Assembly: GCF_035989305.1 (NCBI RefSeq)
Contig: NZ_CP108514.1
Coordinates: 186,001-250,000 of the forward strand
Origin: Streptomyces sp. NBC_01233
GTDB lineage: Bacteria; Actinomycetota; Actinomycetes; Streptomycetales; Streptomycetaceae
DNA length: 64,000 nt
Reading direction: 5' to 3'
This document shows, piece after piece, positions 11,684-25,933 of this stretch. Numbering within the stretch: position 1 is the first letter of the stretch; the number at the start of each line of letters is the position of its first letter. A model generated the notes under the pieces. That model was not told the origin of the DNA. It searched no databases and was given only the letters and a program-made list of their open reading frames with translations. Both the position numbers and the translations under genes were made by a program.

Positions 11684-12271
11684 TCAGCGCGTGGCGCGGC
11701 CGTGGAGAACCAGGGCTCGGGCGAGCGCGGCCAGCGCCGTCGTGCACGACAGCGTCCGGACGATGTTCGTGGCGACCCACGTCGACTTGAACCTCTCCAC
11801 GACCGTGAAGTCGGTCATCTGCGCGACGACACCGCCGTCCGCGAGCTCGTTGTTGAGGGGAATGTTCACCGCGAACGTGATGACCAGTACGACGAGATAC
11901 GCCGCGGCGGCCACCGCCGCCCACAAGGCGGTGGTACGCCGGCCCGCACGGTGCTCGACGACCGCCGAACCGGCTGCCAGCAGCAAAGCCAGCACGAAGG
12001 CCATGCCGAAGAGCGGGTTGCCGTCGACGGCCGCGTTGAAAGCACGCATCGCGGTGACGTAGGTCCGCTCGTCCCCGGCCGCCAGCCCCGGCATCACCGA
12101 AACGTCGAACGCGAAGAACAGCCCCGCCATGAGCCCGACCAGAACCGTGGACAGCATCAGCAGGACGACGGCGAACCCGCCCCCACCCCCAGGCGGCGGG
12201 GGCGGGGGCGGGGGCGGAGCCTTCCGGCCAGAAGGCGAGGGCGGCGTGAACGACGGCGGGCCGCTCCTCAT
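11684..12271 (-). CDS. DUF1772 (anthrone oxygenase-like) membrane protein
   Basis: 195 residues. The DUF1772 domain shows four membrane segments and family-typical FFAFDVSVMPGL, MRAFNAAVDGNPLFG, FAVNIPLNNELAD and WVATNIVRTLSCTTALAAL. The N-terminus is unusual: a run of nine Pro followed by five Gly encoded by a C-tract/G-tract microsatellite near 12182-12215 lies just before the first membrane helix, so the true start may be internal, and the tract is likely to vary in length. Some DUF1772 proteins are linked to anthrone oxidation, but most are uncharacterised. Confidence 0.78.
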   Translation of the reverse strand: MRSGPPSFTPPSPSGRKAPPPPPPPPPGGGGGFAVVLLMLSTVLVGLMAGLFFAFDVSVMPGLAAGDERTYVTAMRAFNAAVDGNPLFGMAFVLALLLAAGSAVVEHRAGRRTTALWAAVAAAAYLVVLVITFAVNIPLNNELADGGVVAQMTDFTVVERFKSTWVATNIVRTLSCTTALAALARALVLHGRATR

Positions 12272-14023: not shown

Positions 14024-14722
14024 ACGCCACGCACCCACCAACCAGCACCACCGCCCCGTCCGACAAGCTCAAGAACAAGGACCGTGGCCTCCTGCCCAGA
14101 CCAGCCGCGGCCGGCCCTCCTGCTGCCAGCAGTCGGTCTTGCTCTGCCCTGCGTCGAGCGCTTCCTGTACCGCGGCGTACGGGCCACGTCACTCGGCACA
14201 CCGGGCCGGACCCGCCGACCGGTCATCTTGTGAGGGTCACGCCGGCCCGCTCTGGGCGCGGCCTGACGGTGCCCAGCGGACGCAACGTGGAGGTGGCCGC
14301 CTGGACGGCGGCTCCGTTGCCAAACGGTCGTCGCCTCGTCCGGAGCCGCCACGACTGGCATGTGCAGGGCAGCCCGCGCGAAGCGACGCGGACATGCCGT
14401 CTATAGCGGACGTGCTGCACGGTACTGATCACTGGGCGGCTGAACGGCCTGCCCGGGCGGTACAGCCCCGTAATGATGAATCGGCGCCGGTCGCAGCGTG
14501 TCCGGTAGCCGTCGCCAGCGAAAACGCCGGGGCGCGGGAATTGGGCGGCCGACGGCGTCTTGGGTCCGCAGTACCGGCGTCGTGGTGCGGGCTCCTTCAA
14601 CTCACCGCGGCGCAGGGCGCGGCGCCCAGTACGCAGCACGGCGCGGCTTCGATGCGCCGCAGTCAGGTCAAGATCCTTGCGCGACGGGTCCCCTGCGGCC
14701 GCGGGGGCGCTACCTTGCCCGG
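14024..14722. other. About 700 bases without a supported gene
   Basis: Both strands contain open stretches, but none shows a recognisable family, a ribosome site with plausible start, or consistent coding bias. Translations are Arg/Pro/Ser-rich shadow frames. The final bases before 14723 would hold the promoter of the P450 gene; TGCCCGG precedes its ATG, a weak ribosome site. The region may be decayed mobile-element sequence, since IS remnants lie on both sides. Confidence 0.4.
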
Positions 14723-15859
14723 ATGGAGGAGTGGGAGTGCTGGGAGCGGCGGGTGCAGACGGCTGCTCACCCTGTGGCGTATCGGCTGGTGCGCGCGGTC
14801 GCTGCCCGCGGCCCGGTGGTTCGGGTGCCGCGGGTCGGGGTGGTGGTGAGCGATGCCCGCCTCGCCCGGGAGGTGCTGACGGACCCCGAGCGATACACGA
14901 AGACGGGGCCGGGCGCGGCGGCCGGGCTGTGGAGCCCGGTGCTCGGCTCGCGGGTGCTGATCACTTTGGAGGGTGCCGAGCACACGGTGCTGCGCAGGCG
15001 GCTGGGAGGGCTGTTTACGCCGGGCCGTGTGGCGGCCGTCTGCGAACGGGTACTGCGCGCTCCGCTCGGCGGGCTGGAGCGGCGGCTGGCGGCAGGCGAG
15101 GAGGTGGACTTCGTCCGGGTGGTCCGGGAGGGGGCCGCCGAAGTGATCCGCGAGCTGGTCGGCCTCCCCGCCGGCGGAGCGGACTTTACCGAGGCCGCCG
15201 CGGTGATCTCGTCCGTACGGCTGTGGCGGACGACGCTGACCGGACGTCAGACAGAGCGTGCCCGGGCGGCGTTGGCCCGACTGAGCGAGGCGGCAGTGGC
15301 GGCCTACCGGGCCGGCGACGAGTCCGCCGTGCCGGGGCGACTGCGCGCACTGGGCTTGGACGAGGCCGAGGCGCGGGGCGCGGTCGGCCTGTTCCTGCTG
15401 ACGGGCACCGAGACGCTGGTCTCCTTTGTGCCCCGGCTGATTGCGCTGGCCCATGACACGGGCAGGGGGCCGGATCAGATCACAGACGCCCTGGTGGAGG
15501 AGGCACTGCGGGTCACCTCGCCAACCCCGGTGATGCTGCGCAGCGCGGCCCGGCCGGGACGGATCGGAGGTGTCCGGGTGGAGGCCGGGGAACGGGTGGT
15601 GATCGCAACGCTGCTGTGCACCGGGGCGTACGGCCCGTTCTCCCCGGATCGGGATCCCTCTGAAACCGCCGGTCTGCGCCGGCTGTGGTTCGGGGCGGGT
15701 CCGCATTTCTGCCTGGGGATGCCGCTGGCCATGGCGGAGATCCGCGCGGTGGTCGAGGTTCTGCGGGGCTTCCCGGAGCTGGTGATAGCGGGTCGGCGCC
15801 CGGCCCGGGGGGTGCTGATCCCTGCCTACGCACGGCTGTCGCTGCGCGCGACGGGCTGA
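14723..15859 (+). CDS. Cytochrome P450
   Basis: 378 residues. Heme-binding loop [17 protein letters not shown] with the axial Cys near residue 330; I-helix [13 protein letters not shown] with the acid-Thr pair; K-helix EEALRV giving ExxR. Slightly short for a bacterial P450 (usually about 400), mainly at the N-terminus, where the chain begins directly with the helical region before the usual PGP segment. The ATG at 14723 is favoured because the frame upstream reads into non-conserved sequence. No ferredoxin or reductase gene is adjacent, so redox partners must come from elsewhere. The 3' side is an IS remnant. Confidence 0.85.
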
Positions 15860-15935
15860 ACCCCCGCCACCCGGGGCGCCGCTGTACCGGGGGTCGGGTG
15901 GCCTCCATGCTCTTTACGCTGCGGCCCGCCCTGTG

Positions 15936-16290
15936 CGGTCCATGCGAAGGTGCGCCTTACCACCCAACGGCGGGGCAGCACCACGAACCCCTCCATGTCG
16001 TCGGTGCGTTTGACGACGTCCAGGGTGAGCGCGATTTTCTCCTTCGCCCAGTTGACGAGGCCGCCGGTGCCGCCGCCGTCGGCCCAGAGGCACAGCCGCG
16101 TCGCGATCACCGACGTTCGCGGCGGTCACGGCGACGACCAGGAGCAGGCCGAGGGTGTCAGTGATGACGAGCCGCTCACGGCCCGGGACTTTCTTGCCGT
16201 CGTCGTAGCCGCGTGAGGCGGCCGGCACCGACGCGGCGGCCCGCACCCGACTGCGCGTCGATGATCCCCGCGCTCCGTTCCACCTCCCGG
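15936..16290 (-). mobile_element. IS5-family transposase remnant
   Basis: Two minus-strand frames together give the C-terminal part of an IS5-type DDE transposase: [27 protein letters not shown] in one frame, then [29 protein letters not shown] followed by [16 protein letters not shown] in another, the last being the family's E-region signature. The join needs a frame change near 16090-16110, and the N-terminal half is missing. No intact open frame remains. Confidence 0.75.
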
Positions 16291-16394
16291 CCCTCGCGCT
16301 CACGGACCCTCCCACGCAGCCGGTGAGAGCCGGATGTCCGTCCAGCATCTCGCTCGGCCTCCATCCCTCCTCGGGGGAAGATTTATACCATTTC

Positions 16395-16427
16395 TTGACA
16401 GTTTAGCGTGAATTGGAGTACTGTCAA
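16395..16427 (+). promoter_or_regulatory. Promoter with embedded perfect inverted repeat for the TetR gene
   Basis: TTGACAGT at 16395-16402 and its exact reverse complement ACTGTCAA at 16420-16427 flank 17 bases. The left arm is also a consensus -35 (TTGACA). A TACTGT hexamer at 16419-16424, 18 bases downstream, can serve as -10 and overlaps the right arm. A TetR dimer bound here would block RNA polymerase, so autoregulation is likely. The expected transcription start (about 16430-16434) falls at or just before the ATG at 16434, which suggests a leaderless transcript. Confidence 0.6.
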
Positions 16428-16433
16428 CGTGCC

Positions 16434-17057
16434 ATGAAAGAGAAGCGCGCGTACGAGAGTCCGCTGCGTGCCGGGCAGCTTGAGCAGACCCGGCAGCTGA
16501 TCCTCGCCGCGCTCACCGAGGCCATCGCCGACGAAAGCGTCCAGGAGCTGACCATCCCGCTCGTGGCGGAGCGCGCAGGCGTCGCCGTCCGCACCGTCTA
16601 CCGGCACTTCCCGACCAGGGAGGCGCTCTTCGCGGCCTGGAGCGGGTGGGCCCAGGAGAATCTGCACGTGCTCATGCAGTCCTACCCGGACACCTTGGAC
16701 GGGCTGCGCCGCGTGGCGCCGGAGCTCTATCGCTCGTACGACGAGCACGCACCGCTGATCCTCGCCATGCTGAATTCCAAGGCGGCCCGGCCGCTGCGGG
16801 AGCAGGGCCGCAGGCACCGGTTCCACTCGGTGGAGGCGGCGCTGGCCGAGCTCACGGCCGAGGCCGACCCGGTAGCCCGCCGCCGCGCGGTCGCCGTGCT
16901 GTACCTGCTGGTGAGCGCCCCGGCCTGGCAGGCCATGCGGCTGCAGGCGGGGCTCGACGGGGCGGAGGCCGGCGCGGCCGCCGCCTGGGCGGTGCGGGTG
17001 CTCACAGACGAGCTGCGGCGAGACCCGGACGGCCCACTACGCCACCCGGGCAGATGA
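16434..17057 (+). CDS. TetR family transcriptional regulator
   Basis: 207 residues. N-terminal helix-turn-helix at about 25-70: LTIPLVAERAGVAVRTVYRHFPTREALFAAW, with the family's TVYRHF signature. The rest is an all-helical ligand-binding/dimer domain. ATG at 16434 has no ribosome site in position (nearest GGAG is 15 bases away), consistent with the leaderless start suggested by the promoter geometry. It is followed after 18 bases by the split dikinase operon on the same strand and is its probable repressor. The ligand is unknown. Confidence 0.88.
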   Translation: MKEKRAYESPLRAGQLEQTRQLILAALTEAIADESVQELTIPLVAERAGVAVRTVYRHFPTREALFAAWSGWAQENLHVLMQSYPDTLDGLRRVAPELYRSYDEHAPLILAMLNSKAARPLREQGRRHRFHSVEAALAELTAEADPVARRRAVAVLYLLVSAPAWQAMRLQAGLDGAEAGAAAAWAVRVLTDELRRDPDGPLRHPGR

Positions 17058-17075
17058 CCGGCGAGGAGGAGAGCC

Positions 17076-18782
17076 ATGAGCATCGCCACGGAACGCACCT
17101 TCGCTCCACCGGGGCCGGGTACCTGGTTCCTGGACCCGACCCACTTCACCCGCCCGGTGACCAGGTTCCACGCCGAGATCTTCGTCGAGGAGCTGCACCG
17201 CGGCTTCGGAGAGAGCCTCCGCCGGTACGGGTCGCTGCTCGAACGGCTGGACTGGGCCTTCGTCAACGGTTTCTGCTACTACCATCCCCAGCCGCTGGGG
17301 GCCCCGCCGGACGCCACGGACCACCCGCCGGCAGAGGTCTGGGAACGCCTTGCCGCCGATCATCCCGAGATCCGCACCAGGCTCGCGACCAGCGCGACCG
17401 TCTTCGAGCGCAAGCTGTGGCGCGAGGACCTGCGCCGCTGGGACGAGGAGGTCAGACCCGGGCTGCAGCGCGAGCGGCGCGAACTACAGCGGGTCGAGCC
17501 CGGTCTCCTCGATACCAGTAGTCTGCTCGCGTACCTCGACCGGTGCCGGGAACACCAGCGCCGAGCCGGCTACCTGCACCACCTGTTCAACATGCCGGCA
17601 CTGCTGCCGATGGGCGATCTGCTCGCACACTGTCAGGAGTGGACCGGGCGCACCACCGGCGAGATCCTGGCCCCGCTGGCCGGATCGAGCCCCGACCCGC
17701 TGGCGGACCGGGAGGAACTGGCCGAGCTGGCCGCCGCTGTAGCAGCGGACCCCCGGGCGACCGAGCTGCTCGCCTCCCCGGCGCGACCCCAGGAGCTGCT
17801 GGCGGCGCTGGGGGCCGTCGCGGGACGTACGAGTACCGCCCTCGCCAAGTACCTGGAGACGGCGGGCTGGCGCCCCGTCAACGGCGAAGACGTGGGCGAT
17901 CCCTGCGTGGCGGAGTTGCCCGCCGTCGTACTCGCGGCCATTCGCTCGGCGGTCTCCTCCTCGACGAGGCCCCAGGCGGACGCCCGCGCCGACCTGCATG
18001 CCGACGCGGCGGCCGACCTTCGCGACGTCGTACCCGCGGCGCACCGCTCCCGCTTCGACGAGCTGCTCGCCGAGGCGCGGTTGGTCTCCCGGCTGCGCGA
18101 CGAGCGCGGGTCGTGCGCGGACCTGCCGGCCATCGGCCTCACCCGGCGCGCCATCCTGGCGGCCGGCCGACGGCTCACCGAGCAGGGCCGGATCCACGCA
18201 CCCGCCCACCTGGCCGAGGCGGGCTACGCCGAGCTGCGCGCCCTGGTCCGTACGGGCTCCGGGCCCGACGCCGCAGAACTCGCCGCCCGAGCGCACTACC
18301 GCGACCACGCCCGGTACGGGGACGCGCCGCCGATGCTGGGTCCACAGCCGGGCGACCCGCTGCCGCCCGATTGGCTGCCGCCCGCCGCGGCACGCCTGGA
18401 ACGCGCCCTCGGGGCCATCGTCCTTGCCATGTTCACCAACCCGGCAGCCCGGACCGAGGGGCGGACCGTGCACGGGCTCGGCGCGAGCCCGGGCGTGTAC
18501 GAGGGCACGGCACGGGTGATCAGCGGCGTGCCCGAGTTCGACCGCATCCAGCCCGGCGACGTCCTGGTCACCGACGCGACCACCACGGCCTTCAACATCG
18601 TCCTGCCACTGCTCGGCGCGATCGTCACCGATCGCGGCGGGGCGCTCTCCCACGCCGCCATCGTCGCCCGGGAGTTCGCCATCCCCGGCGTCGTCGGATG
18701 CACGGATGCCACGGCGGTGATACCCGACGGCGCCTGGGTTCGGGTCGACGGCCGGGCAGGAGAGGCGGCGGTGGTCCGATGA
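17076..18782 (+). CDS. PEP-utilising-enzyme-like subunit with substrate and phosphohistidine domains (rifampin phosphotransferase-like, split)
   Basis: 568 residues. The last 100 residues are a swivelling phosphohistidine domain: LGASPGVYEGTARVI, FDRIQPGDVLVTDATTTAFN, and GGALSHAAIVAREFAIPGVV with the phospho-accepting His near residue 526. The first 450 residues resemble the central substrate-binding part of rifampin-phosphotransferase-type dikinases (FGESLRRYGSLLERLDWAFV then NGFCYYHPQP). The ATP-grasp domain that normally precedes this part is absent and is encoded by the next gene, whose ATG overlaps this stop by 4 bases. GAGGAG 6 bases before the ATG sets the start. The likely reaction is ATP + acceptor giving AMP, phosphate and phosphorylated acceptor; the acceptor (rifamycin-like, phenol or pyruvate) is not determined. 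Confidence 0.8.
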   Translation: MSIATERTFAPPGPGTWFLDPTHFTRPVTRFHAEIFVEELHRGFGESLRRYGSLLERLDWAFVNGFCYYHPQPLGAPPDATDHPPAEVWERLAADHPEIRTRLATSATVFERKLWREDLRRWDEEVRPGLQRERRELQRVEPGLLDTSSLLAYLDRCREHQRRAGYLHHLFNMPALLPMGDLLAHCQEWTGRTTGEILAPLAGSSPDPLADREELAELAAAVAADPRATELLASPARPQELLAALGAVAGRTSTALAKYLETAGWRPVNGEDVGDPCVAELPAVVLAAIRSAVSSSTRPQADARADLHADAAADLRDVVPAAHRSRFDELLAEARLVSRLRDERGSCADLPAIGLTRRAILAAGRRLTEQGRIHAPAHLAEAGYAELRALVRTGSGPDAAELAARAHYRDHARYGDAPPMLGPQPGDPLPPDWLPPAAARLERALGAIVLAMFTNPAARTEGRTVHGLGASPGVYEGTARVISGVPEFDRIQPGDVLVTDATTTAFNIVLPLLGAIVTDRGGALSHAAIVAREFAIPGVVGCTDATAVIPDGAWVRVDGRAGEAAVVR

Positions 18783-19633
18783 CGGGTTCGCTGTCGCCGA
18801 GCACGTGGTCCGCCCCGGTCCCGCTCCGCCTGGCCACCGACGAGAGCCGGTACGGCGGCAAGTCCTCGCAGCTCGCGGCCGCCGCCCGGGCTGGTCTGCC
18901 GGTACCGGAAGGAATCGCCCTGGAATGGCTGTTCGTCGACGCCGTCGCAGGCGGCGACGACGAGGCGCTCGCCGCCCTGCACGTGTCGACCGCCGACTTG
19001 CAGGGCGTTGGGCTGGCCGTGCGTTCATCCGCACCGGGCGAGGACTCGGCCGCGGCGAGCTTCGCCGGACAGCACCTCACCTGCCTCAACGTACGGTGTC
19101 CGGACGGGCTGACCGAAGCGGTCCGAATGGTGAGAGATTCGGCGCACTCGGCCGCCGCGCTCGCCTACCGTGAGCGGCTCGGGCTGGCAGGCCGGCCCAG
19201 AGTGGCAGTGGTGGTACAGGAGTTGGTGGTACCCGAGTGCGCCGGAGTCCTGTTCTCCCGAGACCCCCTCGACGGCTCCGACGTCCTGGTGATCGAGGCG
19301 AGTTGGGGCCTGGGCGAAGCCGTGGTCAGCGGCCTGGTCGTACCGGATCACTACCGGGTCCGCCGCGACGGCCGGGTGATCGAGCGCACGGCGGGCATGA
19401 AGGACCTGGCCGTGGAGCCCGCACTGGCCGGCGGAACGAGCCAGGTCCCGGTCCCCGCCGACCGAATCCACCGACTCTGCCTCGACGAGACGCGATTGGA
19501 GAGCCTGCGGGAACTCACCGCCCGCTGCGAGCAGGTCTTCGGCGGGACGCAGGACCTGGAGTGGGCCTTCGTCGCCGACCGTCTCCGTCTGCTCCAGCGC
19601 CGGCCGATGACCGGGACCGTGCCCCCGTACTGA
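18779..19633 (+). CDS. PEP/pyruvate-binding ATP-grasp domain protein (partner of split dikinase)
   Basis: 284 residues equal to the N-terminal nucleotide-binding module of PEP synthase, PPDK and rifampin phosphotransferase. Motifs in order: RYGGKSSQLAAAARAGLPVP, LAVRSSAPGEDSAAASFAGQ, PECAGVLFSRDPLDGSDVL, IEASWGLGEAVVSGLVVP and TQDLEWAFVADRLRLLQRRP. All the usual ATP-contacting Lys, Arg and Glu positions seem present. The protein ends where the module ends, so this is a true stand-alone subunit, not a truncation. Its ATG overlaps the stop of the phosphohistidine gene (ATGA), implying coupled translation and equal amounts. Compare phenylphosphate synthase, whose corresponding parts are also separate subunits. 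Confidence 0.85.
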   Translation: MTGSLSPSTWSAPVPLRLATDESRYGGKSSQLAAAARAGLPVPEGIALEWLFVDAVAGGDDEALAALHVSTADLQGVGLAVRSSAPGEDSAAASFAGQHLTCLNVRCPDGLTEAVRMVRDSAHSAAALAYRERLGLAGRPRVAVVVQELVVPECAGVLFSRDPLDGSDVLVIEASWGLGEAVVSGLVVPDHYRVRRDGRVIERTAGMKDLAVEPALAGGTSQVPVPADRIHRLCLDETRLESLRELTARCEQVFGGTQDLEWAFVADRLRLLQRRPMTGTVPPY

Positions 19634-19734
19634 CCCCTGCGTAGCCGCCCACCTCAGCTCGGGACGATCATGGACTGCTGCGCGTACGTGCGGTCCGAGC
19701 CCTTGCCGGCGTACCGGGACAGGTACCGCGCGGC

Positions 19735-24718: not shown

Positions 24719-25933
24719 ATGCCGAAACGTCACGCTGTGGTGGCGGGCGCCGGAATCGGCGGCCTCACGGCTGCCATCGCACTGCACCGCCGCGGCTGGC
24801 ACGTCACCGTCTGCGAACGCGCCCCCGAACCGCCCACCACCGGCGCCGGAATCGGCCTCGCCCCCAACGCCCTGCGCGCGCTGGACACCCTCGGCGTCGA
24901 CGCCGCCCACGCCGCCGGCAGCGCCGTACCCGAAACGATGGGCCTGCGCCGCTTCGACGGCCAGTGGCTCACCCGGACCGGCACCGCGGACCTGGCCGCC
25001 CGCTACGGCACACCCCCGATCGCCGTCCCCCGCCCGGCCTTCACCGCAGCCCTGGCCGCCGCCCTGCCACCACGGGCCCTTCGCTACGGCACCCGGGTGA
25101 CCGCCATCGAGGACGCCACAGGCAGCCCCACCGTCCGTACCGCGGCCGGCCCCGACCTCGCCGCCGATCTGGTCATCGCCGCAGACGGCATCAACAGCCC
25201 ACTGCGGCGGGCCCACTTCCCGGCCCACCCCGGCCTGCGCTACACGGGCGAGAGCGCCTGGCGGACCATCGTGGACGCCCCGGACCTGGGCATCGCGTCC
25301 ATGAGCGAGAAGTGGGGGCGCGGCCGGCGCTTCGGTGTCACCCCGCTCTCCGACGGCCGGCTCTACCTCTACGCCACCGCCCTCGTCCCGGCAGGCACCC
25401 GGCCGGCCGACCCGCGGACCGAGCTCCGCCACCGCTTCGGCTCCTGGCACGACCCGATCCCCGCCCTGCTCGACCGGATCGAGCGCCTCGATGCCGCCGA
25501 CATCCTCTGCAACGACCTCTACGACCTGGCCGCACCACTCCCCCGCCTGCACCACGGCCGGATCGCCTGGCTCGGCGACGCCGCCCACGCCATGACCCCC
25601 AATCTCGGCCAAGGCGGCTGCCAGGCCATCGAAGACGCGGTCATCCTCGCCCACCTGCTCCCCGCCGGAGACACCGCGGACAGCCCAGACGCCACGGACC
25701 CCGTCCCTGCCGCCCTCGCCGCTTACACCGCCGCCCGCCGCGACCGCACCAACGCCATCCGCGTCCGCGCCCGCCGCATCGGCCGCCTGGGCATCCTCCG
25801 CAACCCCCTCGCCGCAGCCGCCCGCGACCTCGCGATCCGTGCCACGCCCACCCGCCTGGCCCTGCACGGCATGGACGACCTCTTCAACGGCTTCCGCCTC
25901 CCCGATAGCGGCGACCCGCCGCCAGCTCGGTGA
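24719..25933 (+). CDS. FAD-dependent monooxygenase (aromatic hydroxylase type)
   Basis: 404 residues. FAD Rossmann motif VVAGAGIGGLTAAIALHRRG followed by the Glu of VTVCER; the DG-type motif LVIAADGINSPLRR; and the flavin ribityl motif GDAAHAMTPNLGQGGCQAIED. This is the PHBH/salicylate-hydroxylase-like class, which hydroxylates aromatic or related substrates with NAD(P)H and oxygen. ATG at 24719 starts right before the Rossmann strand and is the best choice. The substrate is unknown and no pathway genes are adjacent. Confidence 0.87.
   Translation: MPKRHAVVAGAGIGGLTAAIALHRRGWHVTVCERAPEPPTTGAGIGLAPNALRALDTLGVDAAHAAGSAVPETMGLRRFDGQWLTRTGTADLAARYGTPPIAVPRPAFTAALAAALPPRALRYGTRVTAIEDATGSPTVRTAAGPDLAADLVIAADGINSPLRRAHFPAHPGLRYTGESAWRTIVDAPDLGIASMSEKWGRGRRFGVTPLSDGRLYLYATALVPAGTRPADPRTELRHRFGSWHDPIPALLDRIERLDAADILCNDLYDLAAPLPRLHHGRIAWLGDAAHAMTPNLGQGGCQAIEDAVILAHLLPAGDTADSPDATDPVPAALAAYTAARRDRTNAIRVRARRIGRLGILRNPLAAAARDLAIRATPTRLALHGMDDLFNGFRLPDSGDPPPAR

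Follow-up and report, generated by a model that had tools for sequence, protein, structure and literature searches.

What is made by two overlapping genes that carry, on separate chains and in exchanged order, the domains that rifampin phosphotransferase (Rph) holds in one? The question arises at positions 16,434 to 19,633 of a 64,000-nucleotide stretch of Streptomyces sp. NBC_01233 (contig NZ_CP108514.1, positions 186,001 to 250,000, forward strand), which we refer to in its full length as the window. There, a TetR-family regulator gene is followed by genes for a protein of 568 amino acids (aa), here called H, and a protein of 284 aa, here called A. Considering gene order, homology, predicted fold, retained residues, clade, neighbouring genes and a promoter palindrome, all obtained by computation, we favour on balance an inducible, Rph-like dikinase of two components that would inactivate a foreign small molecule by phosphorylating it; relatives that bear a permease would add export. 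Dikinase activity, TetR binding and its ligand, the substrate class and a role in detoxification are what we infer from these observations. The features on which the argument first depends are as follows.

17076..18782, + strand: H subunit, 568 aa; Rph-type substrate domain at about residues 1-455 and swivel phosphohistidine domain at about 465-567
18779..19633, + strand: A subunit, ATP-grasp nucleotide-binding protein, 284 aa; PF01326 (PPDK_N) at residues 76-279, E 1.3e-55
18779..18782, + strand: ATGA stop/start overlap of H and A, read from the sequence
18096..18101, + strand: Arg341-Asp342 codons of H, aligned to catalytic Arg666-Glu667 of Rph-Lm by profile and family alignments
18651..18653, + strand: codon of catalytic His526 of H, in GGALSHAAIVARE, invariant in alignments

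H and A match the domains of Rph

A first-pass annotation, made from sequence alone, had read the locus as a split, order-reversed phosphotransferase of the rifampin-phosphotransferase/phosphoenolpyruvate (PEP)-synthase type, and the three open reading frames, the ATGA overlap and the two protein lengths are present as it described them. The two adjacent genes divide the parts of a dikinase between them, ATP-grasp in A and substrate plus swivel domains in H. The predicted structure of H matches residues 314-867 of Rph over the whole length of H, and the model of A (pLDDT 90.2) matches the Rph ATP-grasp domain; Foldseek returned Rph at E 1e-22 and HpeI (9goj) at E 4e-20. Judged from these models, H plus A is an Rph chain severed near residue 312 with the order of the parts swapped. 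The substrate domain of H is of the helical Rph type by structural comparison, while pyruvate phosphate dikinase (PPDK) and other PEP enzymes match the H structure little beyond the swivel domain. This domain is the end of H, and no PEP/pyruvate-binding barrel follows it. All comparison rows except Rph align over only about 92-111 residues, nearly all of them swivel, and their failure to offer another fold for residues 1-455 carries no weight as evidence. The two-component Rph-type reading is thus borne out by the whole-length match, which also disposes of the possibility that the first 450 residues of H have an unrelated fold; the PEP-synthase part of the label holds for the ATP-grasp and swivel domains and fails for the substrate domain.

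Profile searches gave PEP-utilizers (PF00391, residues 491-562, E 5e-21) as the only Pfam match in H, and gave no NCBIfam assignment to Rph: against a cut-off of 999 for the Rph model NF041857, H scores 81 bits and A 178 bits. The best full-length NCBIfam match of H is NF006149 (PRK08296.1-1), a model of a 568-aa hypothetical protein whose positions 16-566 align with H residues 15-566 (E 2e-38; 132 bits, cut-off 730); it resembles H in length, and its family name carries no function. For A, the Rph score is exceeded by PRK06241.1-3 (phosphoenolpyruvate synthase, 184 bits), both being far under their cut-offs.

Among NCBIfam models, RedH ranks second for H (106 bits) and scores 160 bits with A; PigC scores 71 bits with H and 151 bits with A. 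The RedH hits fit a secondary-metabolism enzyme, an ATP-dependent ligase or a tailoring enzyme, similar to the single-chain prodigiosin ligases PigC and RedH, in which the phosphorylated substrate would be an intermediate; a Streptomyces host, and two relatives that adjoin a methyltransferase or a glycosyltransferase gene, fit as well. However, both RedH matches lie far under the cut-off of 1350 (1300 for PigC, likewise missed), and the TetR-H-A unit shared by the Streptomyces copies holds no biosynthetic partner. We regard a ligase as improbable.

The residues expected of an Rph-like dikinase are retained. His526 lies in TDRGGALSH, which fits the T/SxxGGxxxH motif of two-component small-molecule dikinases (PMC12167813). 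In both the profile alignment to Rph and the family alignment, on which the assignment of the pair rests, Arg341-Asp342 coincides with the Arg666-Glu667 pair of the second transfer in Rph; Ala substitutions of that pair leave rifampin unmodified (PMC4844700). Arg followed by Asp or Glu occupies this position in all rows of the window clade and in all 8 fused rows of the family alignment. In A, residues Lys28, Arg82, Glu261, Gln273 and Arg275 are retained in 20/20 split A rows; two of them, Arg82 and Glu261, correspond in alignment to Arg117 and Glu297 of Rph.

The split is old

The same two-gene order, for which the annotation had proposed a search, recurs well beyond Streptomyces. A first contig scan yielded 27 loci from Streptomyces, other actinobacteria, cyanobacteria, delta/Myxococcota, Verrucomicrobia, Acidobacteria, Chloroflexi and Accumulibacter. 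Alignment A1, built from the window protein and 19 of these 27 loci, was the query of the wide searches, and alignment A2 joined window A with 14 others. Thirty loci were called split; removal of 8 Streptomyces entries (L081 and L082 being the same contigs as L008 and L005) and of L121, whose contig ends inside A, left 21 non-Streptomyces split loci with a complete A. L009, where the contig ends inside A, and L023, which has broken frames, were not called split. H identity in other genomes is 42-97%, with order and strand kept and a 4-bp overlap usual, so the pairing of H and A is not due to chance. By our gene caller, the overlap is present in 18 of the 21 loci, across several phyla.

Single-chain relatives in the usual domain order do exist (L027, L079, L124, L125, L127, L137, L138 and L140, plus more distant ones); identity to H by BLAST, measured for two, is 33% in L027 and 28% in L079. 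Yet because the order and overlap of the split genes are conserved across several phyla, we reject a recent gene break. In the H tree, the window clade comprises 29 rows, H-only proteins included, with support of 100/99. The 20 split A rows likewise group as a single clade of the A tree (support 100/100); a long stem separates it from the PpsB-type, PEP-synthase and fused rows. Both trees are midpoint-rooted and do not decide between one and two origins of the split.

In the window's genus, 5 of 199 genomes have a match at E 1e-30, four of them (its own included) with copies of 75-100% identity and one with a fused 840-aa protein; in its class the count is 16/394 at E 1e-40, with 9 (own included) below 1e-190. 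At E 1e-100, matches occur in 13/296 genomes of the window's phylum, 6/235 of the Sorangium phylum and 3/244 of the Leptolyngbya phylum, some of them fused. The Accumulibacter class gives 85/185 at E 1e-30, but the great majority of these rows cover the swivel domain only; the Accumulibacter genome itself (6e-245) is alone at family level, and the next best match is at 3e-39.

Two candidates were discarded. L083 looked like an H-A pair by gene sizes, and its 338-aa neighbour has no match to the ATP profile; a second protein encoded in the window's genome (867 aa; G000:C1:9256081, L002/L091), considered as a copy of Rph, has ATP-grasp followed by a mid-chain swivel domain, the arrangement of PPDK/PEP synthase. 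Two further loci were observed on the margin of the family. In L126 (6370-7716), from a genome of the cyanobacterial phylum, an H-like protein stops matching the family profile at position 446 and lacks a Pfam swivel domain, perhaps through truncation of the gene or a break in the assembly. L118 (4643-7416) is another split H-A pair; it shares 24% identity with window H and 25% with the PpsA type, and a cobalamin-independent methionine-synthase-like gene comes after it.

A lineage apart from phenylphosphate-synthase-type pairs

We next consider a phenol or other aromatic kinase of the HpeHI-CreHI-PpsAB type that opens aromatic degradation, with TetR sensing the growth substrate. These systems have the same split, gene order, 4-bp overlap and fold class as the window pair. 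The hpe cluster is also thought to be horizontally transferred (PMC12167813, PMC9618137), and two putative regulators lie upstream of it (PMC9618137). The clades, however, are separate. As stand-ins for PpsA we used L115 and L117, which are phenylphosphate-synthase-type by their UbiD neighbours (and, in L117, HAD), and L116, whose only link to the type is its similarity to L117. Identity of window H to the three is 22-24%, whereas HpeH, CreH and PpsA are ~45% identical to each other and ~20% to Rph (PMC12167813). Window H therefore falls outside the phenolic subgroup, taken as one clade of ~45% H identity, in a comparison that used L115-L117 and not HpeH or CreH themselves. At the position of Rph Arg666-Glu667, L115, L116 and L117 have Val-Glu, against Arg-acid in the window clade and Rph; in L050 and L118 the position reads Asn-Glu/Asp. 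Moreover, the shared cassette consists of TetR, H and A only, and a flavin adenine dinucleotide (FAD) monooxygenase gene at 24737-25933 lies outside it. On these grounds an aromatic kinase seems unlikely, if less so than a ligase. By sequence comparison, what is new here is the lineage: H and A form well-supported clades apart from the phenylphosphate-synthase-type pairs, and H keeps, as aligned, the Rph-type Arg-acid pair that those pairs lack.

Neighbours of the pair in other genomes

The commonest partner of the split pair is an efflux-type permease. In 11 of the 21 split loci, the gene immediately after A is a same-strand MFS gene: ten were found by profile (L012, L014-L017, L020, L072, L073, L122 and L123), and that of L011, missed by the gene caller, was counted from separate evidence. 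Pfam MFS_1 was confirmed in L011, L012, L014, L017 and L020. In the control, which set aside six Streptomyces loci, L079 and every H and A gene, only 1 of 457 other genes of these loci was followed by such an MFS gene at a distance of up to 150 bp. Dissimilar MFS genes may escape this count, since its profile derives from nine permeases, of which eight neighbour H or H-A and the ninth is from L009. Four of the MFS proteins were scanned further (L012, L014 and L017 after A; L021 after H), and all four have a DHA2/EmrB efflux model as best match, below its cut-off of 230. In the remaining loci, an O-methyltransferase gene directly follows A in L010 and an EryCIII/UDPGT-like glycosyltransferase gene in L129; L074 has an MFS gene after A on the opposite strand, and L131 has no close same-strand gene there. 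The permease, glycosyltransferase and methyltransferase genes favour detoxification over aromatic catabolism and name no compound.

A cyclic nucleotide monophosphate (cNMP)-binding domain lies at A in 6 of the 21 loci, separate in L013 and L019 and fused in L018, L075, L076 and L130, which suggests nucleotide control of A in one branch. The pair could on this basis be a phosphate-transfer module for signalling or metabolic control, for example under cNMP control, and not modify toxic compounds. Five of these loci (L013, L018, L019, L075 and L076) cluster together in the trees, apart from the Streptomyces rows, and the efflux-type permease remains the most frequent neighbour; we give a signalling module little credence.

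TetR genes accompany H in several settings. A profile built from four TetR proteins found 24 TetR genes among 688 genes, and each of the 24 is the first gene upstream of an H gene; TetR types unlike those four would escape the profile. TetR is beside 8/8 fused relatives that score over 330 bits for H and whose upstream side is visible, a count that excludes L128 (no upstream sequence), L139 (no H gene called) and L119 (139 bits); fused L034 and L046-L049 were outside the neighbour survey. TetR also adjoins H genes that have no adjacent A in L024, L025, L030 and L136.

The Streptomyces cassette and its promoter

In Streptomyces, the unit is delimited by the features below.

16374..19679, + strand, approximate: conserved Streptomyces cassette, by blastn against Streptomyces copies
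16395..16427, + strand: perfect 8-bp inverted repeat TTGACAGT-N17-ACTGTCAA, proposed TetR operator/promoter, from arm pairing across Streptomyces copies
16434..17057, + strand: TetR-family regulator, 207 aa; PF00440 (TetR_N), E 1.7e-11; conserved first gene of the cassette

TetR is the first gene in all 8 distinct Streptomyces copies (the window, L004-L008, L035 and L080), in agreement with the dedicated regulator of the annotation. The shared unit of ~3.3 kb holds TetR, H and A only. By blastn, the left edge of the shared DNA falls at 16159-16388 and the right edge at 19616-19679, depending on the copy, with one additional short match in L080 that reaches 19728. Identity over the cassette is 95.6-96.4% in L004-L007, L035 and L080 and 74% in L008. 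Its flanks are unmatched in most Streptomyces copies, surroundings differ between copies, and one copy is on a 292-kb plasmid; the operon is apparently self-contained and mobile. A DDE transposase fragment (15914-16348, - strand; PF01609, E 9e-7) lies directly to the left and is perhaps a trace of cassette movement.

The arms of the palindrome pair at 8/8 positions in the window, L004 and L008 although their sequences differ, a compensatory pattern, and at 7/8 in L005, L035 and L080. A perfect 8-bp repeat arose in 25 of 2000 shuffled 90-mers. Within the palindrome, just before TetR, are a -35-like TTGACA and a -10-like TACTGT, 18 bp apart, so that TetR bound to it would cover the promoter.

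Other genes were observed outside the shared DNA. A P450-like open reading frame (14498-15859, + strand; PF00067), in which a heme-binding motif was spotted by eye, was considered as a possible CreJ-like partner; it was rejected because it lies beyond the left edge common to the copies. An anthrone oxygenase-family protein is encoded at 11684-12271 (- strand; PF08592, E 1.5e-12).

Proposed mechanism and points against it

In the mechanism we propose, a toxic small molecule would enter the cell and bind TetR, which would then leave the palindrome over the -35 and -10 elements, and TetR, H and A would be made together. A would bind ATP and offer it to the swivel domain of H, where His526 would take the beta-phosphate with release of AMP and phosphate, the dikinase chemistry published for PpsAB (PMC12167813). 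On return of the swivel domain to the helical substrate domain, Arg341-Asp342 would help to pass the phosphate on to a hydroxyl group, either of the inducer itself or of a related compound, and the molecule so modified would be inactive. In many relatives outside Streptomyces, the MFS efflux-type permease of the same operon may export the compound or its phosphate.

Several points weigh against a detoxifying kinase of this kind. No compound can be named as the putative substrate of H and A. The regulator alone does not separate detoxification from catabolism, since hpe also has two putative regulators upstream. Outside Streptomyces, just 2 of the 21 split loci have TetR immediately upstream (L010 and L129; L009, cut by the contig end, has it too), and the distant fused L119 is without one. 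The palindrome is imperfect in L006 (6/8) and L007 (5/8), the Streptomyces cassette itself encodes no efflux protein, and the cNMP-binding domains beside or fused to A are not explained by a resistance role. A single-sequence alignment to Rph (6 bits) puts the Arg-acid pair six residues off. Finally, H lies next to MFS with no adjacent A in L021, L022, L077 and L078, where the ATP part may be dispensable or supplied in trans. The genomes of L077 and L078 have no stand-alone A, with matches only in longer frames; in the family alignment, these four H proteins and those of L024 and L025 retain the phosphohistidine and the Arg-acid motif. HpeH alone moves phosphate between phenols (PMC12167813). 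A check of defence-system membership gave no PADLOC match.

We also put forward, more tentatively than the assignment of the window pair, a widespread two-component dikinase lineage for chemical defence, in which TetR senses a toxic natural product, H and A phosphorylate it and, in many bacteria, a co-transcribed DHA2-type permease exports the phosphorylated product, with the ~3.3-kb Streptomyces cassette as a travelling form. If true, this would be a bacterial modify-then-export pathway in a lineage undescribed in the literature searched; should the compound acted on prove to be an antibiotic, it would also be antibiotic phosphorylation by a split enzyme. The detoxification reading can be tested directly on the operator and the two proteins.

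Comparison with known systems

Rph (PDB 5FBT/5HV1) is like the window pair in its three domains, which the latter holds in two chains: H spans the rifampin-binding and swivel domains, and A is the ATP-grasp domain. Both keep the Arg-acid pair and the histidine, and a detoxification role is presumed for the window pair as well. The window system differs in being split and order-swapped, with ~18-20% identity over H. PEP synthase and PPDK share its ATP-grasp and swivel domains, while the structural match of PPDK to H is mainly swivel only, where H stops.

The separate, order-swapped subunits that the annotation pointed out are not novel in themselves: this arrangement is published for HpeHI, with CreHI and PpsAB named alongside as homologous two-component dikinases (PMC12167813, PMC9618137). 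Like H and A, these are two proteins, one ATP-grasp and one substrate/swivel, with Rph-like folds and a swivel histidine. The H gene precedes the A gene in hpe, L115 and L117 as in the window; in hpe, the kinase genes come first and 7/8 genes have four-nucleotide overlaps (PMC9618137), and a putative regulator lies upstream as in the window cassette. A is shorter in the window (284 aa) than in L117 (332), L115 (372) or HpeI (~340 residues). Relatives of the window lineage have efflux-type neighbours, whereas the phenylphosphate-synthase-type pairs have carboxylation genes. Among the open-licence matches listed, no paper linked two-component dikinases to TetR or efflux. The lineage is worth testing because the two-component small-molecule dikinases described in the literature consulted (HpeHI, CreHI and PpsAB) act in aromatic catabolism. 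The authors of PMC12167813 expect recognition of the subfamily to aid the discovery of homologs with roles in other processes, and the present lineage, with regulators, efflux-type pumps and conjugating enzymes among its neighbours, is a concrete candidate for such homologs.

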